Assembly: GCA_015485495.1 (NCBI GenBank)
Contig: WFTL01000041.1
Span: 1-61,432, forward strand
Direction: 5' to 3'
DNA length: 61,432 nt
Source: Planctomycetaceae bacterium
GTDB taxonomy: Bacteria > Planctomycetota > Planctomycetia > Planctomycetales > Planctomycetaceae
Below the pieces are notes generated by a model. It saw only the letters and a list, made by a program, of their open reading frames with translations. It was not told the origin of the DNA and searched no databases. Position numbers and translations under genes: made by a program. Below, one piece after another: positions 36,773 to 53,584 of this stretch. Positions within the stretch are counted from its first letter, which is position 1, and each line of letters starts with the position of its first letter.

Positions 36773-38686
36773 ATGTCGCACCGCATCCGACAACTGCACC
36801 CTCAGGTCGTCAACCGCATCGCGGCCGGTGAAGTCATCGAACGTCCGGCCAGTGTGGTCAAGGAACTGCTGGAAAACAGCATCGATGCTCTGGCCACCCG
36901 CGTGGAAGTCGACATCGTTTCCGGCGGCCTGGAACTCATTCGCGTCACAGACAACGGAGCGGGCATTCACGCCGATGATCTGGCTCTGGCCGTCACCAGC
37001 CATGCCACCAGCAAGATCCGGAGTGATGCGGATCTGGATCAGGTGGCGACTCTGGGATTTCGCGGCGAAGCGCTGGCTTCGATTGCGTCCGTCAGCCGTC
37101 TGGAGATCCGCACGCGTCCGGCCGAACAGCCGCTGGGCCGTGAACTGAATGCGGATGGCGGAGACATCGTGCGTCAGCAGGACTGCGGCTGCCAGGAAGG
37201 CACCCGCATCGAAGTGCGCAGTCTGTTTTACAACACGCCGGCCCGCCGCCGGTTTCTGAAGAAGCCATCCACGGAATTCGGCCGCATCAGCGACCAGTTC
37301 TGCCGCATCGCTCTGGCCTGCCCGATGGTGCACATGAACCTAACGCACAACGATCGCCGCGTGTACAGCCTGCCGGGCGGAGCCGATCCGGAAGACCGCA
37401 TCCGCCGCCTGTTCGGTTCCGACCTGACCGACAGACTCATTCCCGTGGAATCCGAAACCACCTCGGCGGACGGCCAGGTGACGCGTCTGTGGGGCTTTGT
37501 GGGAGACCCCACGCTCAGTCGATCCACGCGCCGGCATCAGTTTCTCTATCTGAACGGGCGCTGGATTCAGGACCGCAGCCTGCAGCACGCTCTGGCGGAA
37601 GCCTATCGCGGTCTGCTGATGGTGGGCCGTCATCCGGTCAGTTTTCTGTTTCTGGAAGTGCCGCCACACCTGGTGGATGTCAACGTCCACCCGACGAAAA
37701 CCGAAGTGCGGTTTCGGGACAGCCAGACGCTTTACCGGCAGTTGCTGAGCACGATTCGGGACCGCTTTCTGCAGCTCGATTTTCACGTCGATTTTCAGGT
37801 CCCGGCATCGGCCGCCGCGGCCGATGCCGACAGGGCCGTCCCGGACGCACCGGCCCGCCGCGACCTGTTCGTCCGGGCCGAAGCGGCCGTCCCGGCCGGG
37901 GCCGGTTCCATGGCGCCGCCGACCGTGCTGCCGGACCACGTGGCCGAACAGTTCCGTCCTCTGCCGGATGATTCCGCGGCTTCCGAAACAGAATCCGGTT
38001 CTGTTTCGTCCGATCCTGCCGCGGACGCTGCGTTCCGTTCTTCGCCGGTCGCTTCGGACTCAGATGCCACACATCCGGAACCGCCGCCGGCCGCCCCGAC
38101 AGCGCCGCTGTCCGATTACCGCGCTCTGCAGATCCACGACTGCTATCTTGTGATCGCCGTGGAAGACGGCATCGAAATCGTCGACCAGCATGCGCTGCAC
38201 GAACGGATCCTGTATGAACAGCTCCGAACGCGCATCCTGGAAGGACCGGTGGAACGGCAGAAACTGCTGATTCCTCAGACGGTCGAATGCAGTCCGGGAG
38301 AAGCGGCCGTTCTGTGTGAACATCAGGATCTGCTGCACGAAGTCGGTTTCGAGCTGCAGGAATTCGGCGGCACGACCGTTCTGGTCGAATCGCATCCGGT
38401 TCTGATTCCGCGGGGCGATTTCGTGCGCATTCTTCGCGATTTCGCAGCGCAGCTGGAACAGACGGACGGCCGCACGTCGCGCCGGGATCTGCTGGACCGG
38501 ATGCTGCAGACGATGGCCTGCCGGGCGGCCATCAAAGCCGGCCAGCGCCTGACTCAGGAAGAAATCCGCGATCTCATGCAGCAGCGCCCCCGGGTGACGG
38601 ATTCTCACCACTGTCCGCACGGGCGGCCCACGGCCATGCGGATTTCCCGCGCTGCCCTGGACCGGCAGTTCGGCCGGCTCGGATAG
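36773..38686 (+). CDS. mutL: DNA mismatch repair protein MutL with endonuclease motifs
   Basis: A 637-residue MutL. The GHKL ATPase domain shows ELLENSIDAL, VTDNGAGI, TSHATSKI and GFRGEALASIASVSRLEI. A Pro/Ala-rich, poorly conserved linker spans about residues 340-450. The C-terminal domain has DQHALHERILYE (from 471), fitting the DQHAx2Ex4E endonuclease signature, plus MACRAAIKAG and CPHGRP. It can therefore nick DNA itself, unlike E. coli MutL, which relies on MutH. It is the only repair gene of its pathway in the window; mutS is elsewhere. Confidence 0.96.
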   Translation: MSHRIRQLHPQVVNRIAAGEVIERPASVVKELLENSIDALATRVEVDIVSGGLELIRVTDNGAGIHADDLALAVTSHATSKIRSDADLDQVATLGFRGEALASIASVSRLEIRTRPAEQPLGRELNADGGDIVRQQDCGCQEGTRIEVRSLFYNTPARRRFLKKPSTEFGRISDQFCRIALACPMVHMNLTHNDRRVYSLPGGADPEDRIRRLFGSDLTDRLIPVESETTSADGQVTRLWGFVGDPTLSRSTRRHQFLYLNGRWIQDRSLQHALAEAYRGLLMVGRHPVSFLFLEVPPHLVDVNVHPTKTEVRFRDSQTLYRQLLSTIRDRFLQLDFHVDFQVPASAAAADADRAVPDAPARRDLFVRAEAAVPAGAGSMAPPTVLPDHVAEQFRPLPDDSAASETESGSVSSDPAADAAFRSSPVASDSDATHPEPPPAAPTAPLSDYRALQIHDCYLVIAVEDGIEIVDQHALHERILYEQLRTRILEGPVERQKLLIPQTVECSPGEAAVLCEHQDLLHEVGFELQEFGGTTVLVESHPVLIPRGDFVRILRDFAAQLEQTDGRTSRRDLLDRMLQTMACRAAIKAGQRLTQEEIRDLMQQRPRVTDSHHCPHGRPTAMRISRAALDRQFGRLG

Positions 38687-50762: not shown

Positions 50763-51527
50763 TCAGGACTCGGAATCGTCCTTCGTCGCCACCCGCCGTC
50801 CCGTGACGGCAGCTGTCAGTTCATTGTCGTTGATCACGACATCGGCTTTTCCTTCCAGGCGGTTGCCGCGGGGTTTTCCGCGGAATTCGGCGCGGAACCT
50901 GGCCCCGTCCGGCGCTTCGCCTTCCACGACAAGCGTCAGGACGTTGTTTTTCAGAGTGACATCGCTGAGTTCGTGATCGCCGGCGGCGGCATCCGAGTAA
51001 GTTCCCACCAGTCTGCCGCGGCGCAGTTCCAGAGTCACCGTCGGTTCGAAAAACTCACCGTTGTCTGTTTCCACCGACAGTTCCCATTTCCCGACCACAT
51101 CGCGGCGGCTGGTTCGGCGGCGGGCGTCGATCGGCAGGTCGATGGGTTCTCCGTTGAGCGTCAGTTTCGTCAGCCCTTTCAGGCTGTCCCCGTCGGCCGT
51201 CCCCGAAAAATCGGCCTGCACTTCGTTGCCGTCGACATCGAATTCCAGAGAAAAGGTGACAGTTTTTCCGTCGAATGCTCCTTTGGAAATCTCCAGACTG
51301 ACATTCTGATCGCTGTATTCACCGGTCAGTTTTCCGTCGTCGTCCAGTGCGAGCCGAAGCTGGCTTTCAATGAACGCGCCGGCGACTTCGGTTTCCCAGA
51401 CCCATGTACCGGTCGGATCGTGCCGGGCGGATTCCGCACTCTTTTCGGTGCTCTGGTCATCCGCGGAAATCGACGGCCCTGTCAGACACACGGCAGCAGC
51501 AGTCAGAAGAAAAAACACGGTTCTCAT
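50763..51527 (-). CDS. exported protein with two tandem lipocalin-like beta domains
   Basis: A 254-residue protein of unknown function. A signal peptide (RTVFFLLTAAAVCLTGPSISA) leads to two related halves. The first is about residues 40-135 (TGTWVWETEV, GKLTGEYSD, FSLEFDVDGNEVQADFSGTA) and the second about 145-245 (VGKWELSVET, GRLVGTYSDAA, LTLVVEGEAPDGARFRAEF). Both have the G-x-W start and alternating strands of small beta barrels, suggesting internal duplication. An exported binding or structural role is likely. The start at 51527 coincides with the signal peptide. Confidence 0.65.
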   Translation of the reverse strand: MRTVFFLLTAAAVCLTGPSISADDQSTEKSAESARHDPTGTWVWETEVAGAFIESQLRLALDDDGKLTGEYSDQNVSLEISKGAFDGKTVTFSLEFDVDGNEVQADFSGTADGDSLKGLTKLTLNGEPIDLPIDARRRTSRRDVVGKWELSVETDNGEFFEPTVTLELRRGRLVGTYSDAAAGDHELSDVTLKNNVLTLVVEGEAPDGARFRAEFRGKPRGNRLEGKADVVINDNELTAAVTGRRVATKDDSES

Positions 51528-51832
51528 ACGTCGGGTCTCCGGAAACAGAAAAACGAAAGAACATTTCGGACGTCGGGCCGGATGCCGGCCGGCCGACCGA
51601 CCCGCTTCAGCAGGGCCGCCGGCAGATCGATCCCCCCCCGCTGGATCCCTCGAATAGAACAACGGCGGACGGATGCTGTGTCAAGGTCCGATGCCGCCGG
51701 GGCCGGAGGAACGGGATTCTGCGGAAATGATTTCCGCAGAATTCTGCGGATGGATGCGGTAGTTCCGCCGGCCAGATTGGTTTAGATTGACGGATTCTTC
51801 GGAATCCTTTGTTGCCGGGCCGGCCGGATGGA
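51528..51832. promoter_or_regulatory. 305-base divergent region upstream of uppS
   Basis: It separates the leftward exported-protein gene from the rightward uppS gene. The outstanding content is the nested palindrome at 51716-51750. No convincing -35/-10 pair was found; TTTAGATT near 51781 could include a -10 box. Confidence 0.45.
51716..51750. promoter_or_regulatory. two overlapping perfect palindromes (three half-sites)
   Basis: ATTCTGCGGAAA (51716-51727), TGA, then TTTCCGCAGAAT (51731-51742) form a 12-base-arm inverted repeat. The right arm overlaps an 18-base uninterrupted palindrome (51733-51750) ending in another TTCTGCGGA. The result is the order A, A-inverted, A. It looks like a multi-site operator for a dimeric regulator or a switchable RNA structure, about 85 bases before the uppS start. 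Confidence 0.75.
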
Positions 51833-52672
51833 ATGCCCGTCACGCCGTGTGGTCCACGGAGCAGCAGATCGTTGAGTCGAGAAACTCCGTATTCTGATGA
51901 ACAACTGGCTGCTTTCGGGCTGCAGAGAGCCCGGCTGCCGCGGCATGTGGCCATCATCATGGACGGCAACGGACGCTGGGCTCAGCAGCGCGGTCTGCCG
52001 CGCATTGAAGGGCACCGGCGCGGAGTGACGTCCGTCCGGGAAACCGTGGAAGAATGTTCCCGGCTGGACCTCGATCAGCTGACGCTCTACTGCTTTTCGA
52101 GTGAAAACTGGAAACGGCCGCCGAATGAACTGTCGTTCCTGATGCGTCTGCTGAAAAAGTACGTCGTCGAAGAACGCCGCCGGATTCGCGATCAGGGACT
52201 GCAGTTCCGCGTGATCGGCCACACCGAACAGCTTCATACCGACATCCGGAAGGAAATCGCCGAAACGATCCGCGAATCGGCCGACAACGACGGCATGACG
52301 CTCTGCCTGGCACTGAATTACGGTGCCCGATCGGAAATCACCCATGCCGTCCGGCAGATTGCCGCTCAGGTGCAGGCCGGTACGCTGGTTCCCGATGACA
52401 TTTCCGAACAGACTGTGGCCGATCATCTGATGACAGCCGACATGCCCGATCCGGATCTGGTCATCCGCACCGCCAGCGAGATGCGGGTCAGCAATTTTCT
52501 TCTCTGGCAGATCAGTTATTCGGAGTTGTGGATCACAGACACCTTCTGGCCGGAGTTCCGGCGGGAACATCTGCATGAAGCACTCCGGTCGTATGCCCGA
52601 CGCGATCGCCGATTCGGCGGTCTCAGCGAGCCGTCTGCGAAACCGCCGCTGCCGGCTCTGAAACACGACTGA
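51833..52672 (+). CDS. uppS: isoprenyl transferase (undecaprenyl diphosphate synthase)
   Basis: A 279-residue cis-prenyltransferase building the C55 lipid carrier for peptidoglycan and exported polysaccharide. VAIIMDGNGRWAQQRGLPRI carries the catalytic Asp and Trp, and EGHRRGV, YCFSSENWKRPPNE and the C-terminal DLVIRTASEMRVSNFLLWQI and SELWITDTFWPEF complete the family signature. The Arg-Gly of the usual RTSGExRxSNF is here RTASEMRVSNF. The start at 51833 (ATG, preceded by GGATGG) is chosen; a TTG at 51809 is in frame. cdsA follows after nine bases, the common uppS-cdsA pair. Confidence 0.93.
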   Translation: MPVTPCGPRSSRSLSRETPYSDEQLAAFGLQRARLPRHVAIIMDGNGRWAQQRGLPRIEGHRRGVTSVRETVEECSRLDLDQLTLYCFSSENWKRPPNELSFLMRLLKKYVVEERRRIRDQGLQFRVIGHTEQLHTDIRKEIAETIRESADNDGMTLCLALNYGARSEITHAVRQIAAQVQAGTLVPDDISEQTVADHLMTADMPDPDLVIRTASEMRVSNFLLWQISYSELWITDTFWPEFRREHLHEALRSYARRDRRFGGLSEPSAKPPLPALKHD

Positions 52673-52681
52673 CTCACTTTC

Positions 52682-53584
52682 ATGCTGGCGTGGCGTCTTG
52701 GAATTTCGGCCGTTCTCATTCCCCTGCTGGTGGGTCTGTTCCGCATGGACGCCGCTCAGGGAAACCAGGCCGTTATTCTGCTGATCCTGTGCTGCCTGCT
52801 GAGTGTGCGGGCCTGCCGGGAAACCACCTGGCTGCTCAGCGTACGCCGCATGCGCCCGTCCTTCCCGGCCGCCGCACTGTGCAGTGTGCTGATCGTGACA
52901 GCCGGCTGGGGACACACATTGCTGAATCCGGCTGACGGACTGCCGCGTCTGCTCACATCGCTGGGCCTGATCGCCGGGGCGCTGGTCCTCAGTTTCCAGG
53001 GACTGTTCATTCGGGAAGTCGTTCGATTCGAACAGCCGGGAACGACCATGGAAACTCTGGGAGCCGATCTGCTGTCGGTGATGTACAGTGGTGTCCTGCT
53101 GGCGGTGACGAGCCAGCTGCGATGGTTTCCGTCGCCTGAGATCGGATATTTCGTTCTTGTGTCTCTGATTGTCGCCGTCAAGAGCGGTGACACGACGGCC
53201 TATGCCTTCGGACGACTCTGGGGCCACCGCAAAATGACGCCGATCCTCAGCCCGGGCAAGACCTGGATGGGAGCGATCGGGGCCGTCACCGGATCTGCCG
53301 CGGGCACGGGCCTGTGGCTGGCGTTCGGCGGGCATCTGTTCGAAGCCGCTCCTGCGGTCCGAAGCTGGCCGGCCGTTTTCGTGTATGGGGTCGGTCTGGG
53401 GATCGTCGGTCTGACTGGCGATCTGTGCGAATCTCTGATCAAACGCGATGTGGACCAGAAAGATTCCGCCTCGCTGATGCCCGGCTTCGGCGGCCTGCTG
53501 GACCTGCTGGACAGTGTTCTGTTTTCCGGCCCGTTCGCTCTGGCCTTCTGGATCTTCTGGCCTCCGGCAACAGCCGCGGGCTGA
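52682..53584 (+). CDS. cdsA: phosphatidate cytidylyltransferase
   Basis: A 300-residue polytopic membrane enzyme making CDP-diacylglycerol from phosphatidate and CTP. Eight hydrophobic segments are visible. The signature regions are SGDTTAYAFGRLWGHRKMTP, SPGKTWMGAIGAVTGS and GDLCESLIKRDVDQKDSASL followed by MPGFGGLLDLLDS. In the last block the usual PGHGGxxDRxDS His and Arg are Phe and Leu. Similar changes occur in other lineages, but the loss deserves notice. It is transcribed with uppS. Confidence 0.9.
   Translation: MLAWRLGISAVLIPLLVGLFRMDAAQGNQAVILLILCCLLSVRACRETTWLLSVRRMRPSFPAAALCSVLIVTAGWGHTLLNPADGLPRLLTSLGLIAGALVLSFQGLFIREVVRFEQPGTTMETLGADLLSVMYSGVLLAVTSQLRWFPSPEIGYFVLVSLIVAVKSGDTTAYAFGRLWGHRKMTPILSPGKTWMGAIGAVTGSAAGTGLWLAFGGHLFEAAPAVRSWPAVFVYGVGLGIVGLTGDLCESLIKRDVDQKDSASLMPGFGGLLDLLDSVLFSGPFALAFWIFWPPATAAG

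Follow-up and report, generated by a model that had tools for sequence, protein, structure and literature searches.

A unique array of alternating half-sites between divergent genes of a Planctomycetaceae bacterium, possibly an orphan site of integrase-arm type

Two nested perfect palindromes lie upstream of uppS and cdsA in the window (the whole stretch of 61,432 nucleotides that was analysed, contig WFTL01000041.1 of a Planctomycetaceae bacterium), and they raise the question of whether they serve as a site on DNA or as a structure in RNA, and on behalf of which genes. The earlier note on this DNA placed uppS-cdsA and/or the divergent exported-protein gene under their control, the element being either a cooperative operator or a two-state RNA switch. 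A switch at uppS, if true, would tie the lipid supply of the cell envelope to a new regulator; the evidence presented here does not support it. The features of the region are as follows.

50763-51527, minus strand: gene for a predicted exported protein of 254 aa, divergent, start at 51527, no Pfam match
51714-51726, plus strand: half-site 1, GGATTCTGCGGAA, identical at 13 of 13 positions to the inverted-repeat arm before the tyrosine integrase of genome G086
51716-51742, no strand: perfect inverted repeat (half-sites 1 and 2), 13-base arms, 1-base spacer, exact scan
51733-51750, no strand: 18-base perfect palindrome TCCGCAGAATTCTGCGGA (half-sites 2 and 3), 9-0-9, exact scan
51760-51788, plus strand: weak candidate uppS promoter, TAGTTC-17-TAGATT, hypothetical, crude matrix scan
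51792-51804, plus strand: fourth near half-site, GGATTCTTCGGAA, matching half-site 1 at 12 of 13 positions
51872-52672, plus strand: uppS (undecaprenyl diphosphate synthase), start TTG at 51872 by homology
52682-53584, plus strand: cdsA-like cytidylyltransferase gene, after uppS

The stretch 51710-51756 reads AACGGGATTCTGCGGAAATGATTTCCGCAGAATTCTGCGGATGGATG, and the array within it is laid out as GGAACGGG-ATTCTGCGGAAAT-G-ATTTCCGCAGAAT-TCTGCGGA-TGG, that is, as a word of 9-10 bases occurring three times in alternating orientation, all within 35 bases. The exact scan confirmed the coordinates and letters of both palindromes, as well as the order A, A-inverted, A, with exact copies of the core TTCTGCGGA at 51717-51725 (+), 51733-51741 (-) and 51742-51750 (+). 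The inverted repeat had been described with 12-base arms; it is indeed perfect, but an inner A/T pair brings the arms to 13 bases, so that it reads 12-3-12 as a hairpin and 13-1-13 as an inverted repeat. Its right arm, the middle copy, is common to the palindrome. Downstream, a one-mismatch copy of the core is found at 51795-51803, and the fourth near half-site begins 42 bases beyond the array. The divergent spacer measures 344 bases, with the array 188 bases from the start of the exported-protein gene and 121 from that of uppS. The region is truly intergenic and divergent, which makes a DNA-binding site plausible.

Chance was assessed in an own-genome sample of 20 stretches (400 kb) plus the window, 461 kb in all, from a genome of 4.67 Mb. 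Markov shuffles of the window predict 0.03 perfect repeats with arms of at least 13 bases per 61 kb, and the sample holds eight; six of the eight are intergenic, although non-coding DNA makes up only 54 kb of the sample, and strong hairpins between genes are thus an ordinary feature of this genome. The first palindrome alone would be unremarkable. A 9-mer accompanied within 60 bases by an inverted as well as a direct copy has a shuffle expectation of 0 per 461 kb; seven matches were found at five places, and the words at the other places are mostly GC-rich, tandem or self-palindromic. What is unusual about the pattern is thus the nested third copy, and the arrangement exceeds chance. The claim that such perfection is rarely chance holds for the nested array, which goes beyond the shuffles, but not for lone intergenic repeats with 13-base arms, which are normal here. 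Among the latter are intergenic repeats with perfect arms of 22, 19 and 17 bases (L081:18711, L086:3777 and L082:19682, respectively); T-runs follow the first two, which look terminator-like, while the third lies in a divergent spacer and has no T-run. Another perfect 13-1-13 inverted repeat, CGGCATCGGCCGCcGCGGCCGATGCCG, occurs in the window at 37803-37829, inside mutL (36773-38686).

The paired core in the window is the sole one in the 4.67-Mb genome, and no other copy of the 18-mer was found there at up to two mismatches. Single core words are common inside genes, because CTG-CGG-AAA is ordinary coding sequence. Copies scattered through genes, which had been named as evidence against a functional element, are thus a property of the single word and not of the paired arrangement. 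The core word was accordingly rejected as a regulon marker, and a dispersed palindromic repeat of the REP or MITE type was rejected because the array is unique rather than many-copy.

The link with uppS was examined in 64 leaders upstream of the conserved MDGN motif, the window included, from about 60 planctomycete genomes, a few of which are represented twice. The array stands before uppS in the window only, the leader of a same-genus genome being among those compared. The best other leaders match 14 of the 18 bases of the palindrome; one such match, in G054 (L010), and another in G025 (L099) are slightly above chance (0.1 expected) and isolated. In the same-genus genome G001 a different gene lies upstream of uppS, and two same-genus genomes have no homologue of the exported-protein gene. 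A conserved uppS operator was rejected on the absence of the element from the leaders of relatives. That absence had been named beforehand as the observation that would speak against control of uppS, and it is what the leaders of all the other planctomycete genomes examined display; control of uppS-cdsA is therefore unsupported. The candidate uppS promoter begins 10 bases downstream of the array, which is a position typical of activator sites, and is missing from a stricter promoter scan.

If the region were transcribed, copies 1 and 2 would pair with -23.4 kcal/mol including flanks (z -6.3), and copies 2 and 3 with -11.1 kcal/mol. A two-state switch draws on the complementarity of the middle copy to both neighbours, with either of which it would pair; however, the 1-2 pairing exceeds its alternative in stability by about 12 kcal/mol, and the 2-3 palindrome is loopless, so that its centre has to open to form a loop. 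On energy the bistable switch was excluded, and this half of the earlier proposal is hardly credible. We also regard as very improbable an RNA hairpin of the untranslated leader, with a role in transcript processing, stability or attenuation. The great stability of the 1-2 hairpin would suit such a role, but no U-tract follows it on either strand, the fold of the region behind it is no more stable than those of shuffles (z -0.7), the plausible uppS promoter sits downstream, so that the hairpin is perhaps untranscribed, and the element is unconserved and matches no Rfam family above any gathering score. A simple hairpin is possible only if the region is transcribed. Intrinsic terminators resemble the element as strong intergenic hairpins, a common class in this genome, but the window hairpin is free of a U-tract on both strands and lies between gene starts instead of gene ends; an intrinsic terminator was rejected for want of the U-tract. 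Nearer to uppS, 65 bases before its start, a separate hairpin with a UUCG loop, GGATTC-TTCG-GAATCC, is found at 51792-51807 (+), where it overlaps the fourth near half-site and is followed by TTTGTTG. It is weakly terminator-like, and may either act as a weak attenuator or coincide with the start of transcription.

A different context for the word emerged from 99 related genomes searched for the paired core and the 18-mer. The paired core, unique in its own genome, has one copy among these relatives, about 25 bases before a tyrosine integrase gene (PF00589) in G086, a genome of another family of the same class. At one mismatch the 18-mer has two other copies in the relatives, one of them also in G086. 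The two G086 sites are 11.6 kb apart and represent the two ends of one island of 11.9 kb, which is bounded by 51-base direct repeats of the tRNA-3'-end type and carries TCCGCAGAATTCCGCAGAATACTGCGGA 115-145 bases inside its right end; the half-site word is thus common to the window and to both ends of the island. Recurrence of a half-site at both ends was observed in two islands. The half-site that forms the inverted repeat before the integrase comes back near the opposite end, at L149:15216-15243 and on the right of the L187 island, in direct repeats spaced by 10 bases, with words specific to the element (TTCCGCA in the L149 island and TTCCACA in the L187 island). A second island of G086 carries a word of its own, TTCCACA, both in the left inverted repeat and in four copies near the right end. 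Because this word differs from that of the first island and stands at both ends, the island words are element-specific DNA sites and candidates for the arm type.

Likeness between the window and G086 extends beyond the searched core, as 12 of the 18 positions scored outside it agree (probability 8e-4 in simulation); among the 17 places with the core, G086 ranks first, ahead of 16 unrelated genomes. With an arm motif built without G086, the window repeat scores 12.2 against 4.6 and is a clear outlier among 28 strong inverted repeats of its own genome, although this motif still depends in part on the window's own core as the search query. Because the core was the query that led to the family, resemblance within it does not count as independent evidence.

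These comparisons suggest that the window site consists of arrayed DNA half-sites and is most probably an orphaned site of integrase-arm type, a reading to which we give a probability of about 0.35 and which we rank ahead of a local operator and of a product of template switching. The double-stranded array, with three exact half-sites and one near half-site (core TTCTGCGGA, fullest form GGATTCTGCGGAA), would be occupied pairwise by a dimeric or multimeric DNA-binding protein. The specificity of that protein would be most like that for the arm-type sites of planctomycete tyrosine-integrase islands, in which a half-site inverted repeat lies directly before the integrase and further copies of the half-site stand just inside the opposite end. 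As integrase, tRNA and island are missing here, the site would be an orphan, either a relic or the target of a protein encoded on an absent element. We infer that the array binds protein, perhaps one resembling an integrase or RDF, and that the copy in the window may be a relic; a binding specificity shared with integrase islands is the best lead that the sequences offer. Like the arm sites of lambda integrase/Xis type, which are short direct and inverted half-sites near the element ends and before the integrase, the window carries direct and inverted copies, and its 13-base word is also that of the G086 island. The window differs from tyrosine-recombinase arm sites in having no integrase, core att site, tRNA or island, and in the compression of its half-sites into one 35-base array. 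Against the orphan-arm reading, the own genome has no homologous integrase, its recombinases being two XerC/D-like proteins and one fragment only, the window contains no tRNA, and no island remnants flank the array. If the orphan-arm reading is true, the site would illustrate how the end-sites of islands persist or move away from tRNA genes. One specific version, which explains the array as a scar left by deletion of an integrase island, appears improbable. Here a G086-like left repeat, ATTCTGCGGAA-cga-TTCCGCAGAAT, would have recombined with a right-end array, TCCGCAGAATACTGCGGA, at the shared word TTCCGCAGAAT, and loss of the whole island would have left the order A, A-inverted, A behind.

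Two explanations at the level of DNA compete with the orphan-arm reading. The operator of a host transcription factor, common to the divergent promoters and bound by dimers on copies 1-2 or 2-3, is a possible but doubtful one. The intergenic position of the array between divergent genes, its distances to the two gene starts, its perfect and repeated dyads in a divergent promoter region and the weak -10/-35 candidate about 10 bases downstream all agree with it, and to this extent the cooperative operator of the earlier note keeps its ground, though without the proposed control of uppS. Known palindromic operators in divergent promoters likewise combine perfect dyad symmetry with overlapping sites. 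However, a single paired site in the genome implies that there is no regulon, the element is missing before uppS in the other leaders examined, and no regulator gene is adjacent, the only one among the scanned genes encoding a LysR protein about 26 kb away. The window thus differs from known operators in regulon, conservation and neighbouring regulator, and among the papers listed in a literature search there was no regulator paper, nor was the word found there as a known operator half-site. Alternatively, the array may be a functionless mutational product, in which short-range template switching copied a nearby word in inverted form to give A, A-inverted, A. Template switching can create perfect hairpins in a single event (PMC8794818), and its action at quasipalindromes in E. 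coli has been reported (PMC7202029). The perfect identity, uniqueness and non-conservation of the array would all follow from such an event, but template switching predicts neither the 13 identical bases and matching flanks shared with the G086 island site nor the fourth near-copy downstream, and we consider this origin unlikely.

The search also brought out a conserved structure in planctomycete integrase leaders, between a tRNA gene and the start of the tyrosine integrase. It reads GCCG(AAGC...GCTT)AC(CCCGG...CCGGG)TGCGGC, with three helices, followed by a 13-3-13 inverted repeat. A covariance model, R1, was built from 16 leaders.

L154:1416-1505, L155-L168, L171, L172; also L149:3511-3600, L187: members of the R1 leader family, tRNA-proximal, in planctomycete islands

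The window was rejected as a member. R1 gives it 28 bits through the hairpin alone; scores of 25 bits for an unrelated phage contig that shares the core, and of 27-29 bits for true members read on the antisense strand, make this value uninformative. The window does have the inverted repeat P4 with arms of the NTTCTG(T/C)GGAA type, a likeness that is partly circular because the family was reached via the window core. Helices P1-P3 were not found upstream of it, only 7 bases being present where both P2 and P3 should lie, and there is neither an integrase gene directly downstream nor a tRNA upstream. In the 16 leaders themselves, pairing holds in 92.6% of cells, both sides have changed in 15 of 29 pairs, and no shuffle reached the covariation score. 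Rfam matches in five representative leader loci were to tRNA alone. R1 finds the leader in 10 of 98 other genomes, best in one family of the class and weakly in the family of the window. A covarying, tRNA-proximal leader without an Rfam match is thus widespread among planctomycete integrases.

In a genome-wide collection, the core pair at its exact spacing has 16 copies, spread over unrelated phyla, and none of the 16 has a third copy. The phage and plasmid collections yielded nothing relevant; in one phage contig the hairpin is present and no integrase was found nearby. The same 18-base palindrome occurs in viral contigs at L205:4128, L205:4304 and L209:7477, hence twice in L205. Judged by eye, the GC-rich 18-mer copies inspected there appear to be coding, and they seem to encode a PQNSAE-type peptide before a helix-turn-helix-like stretch.
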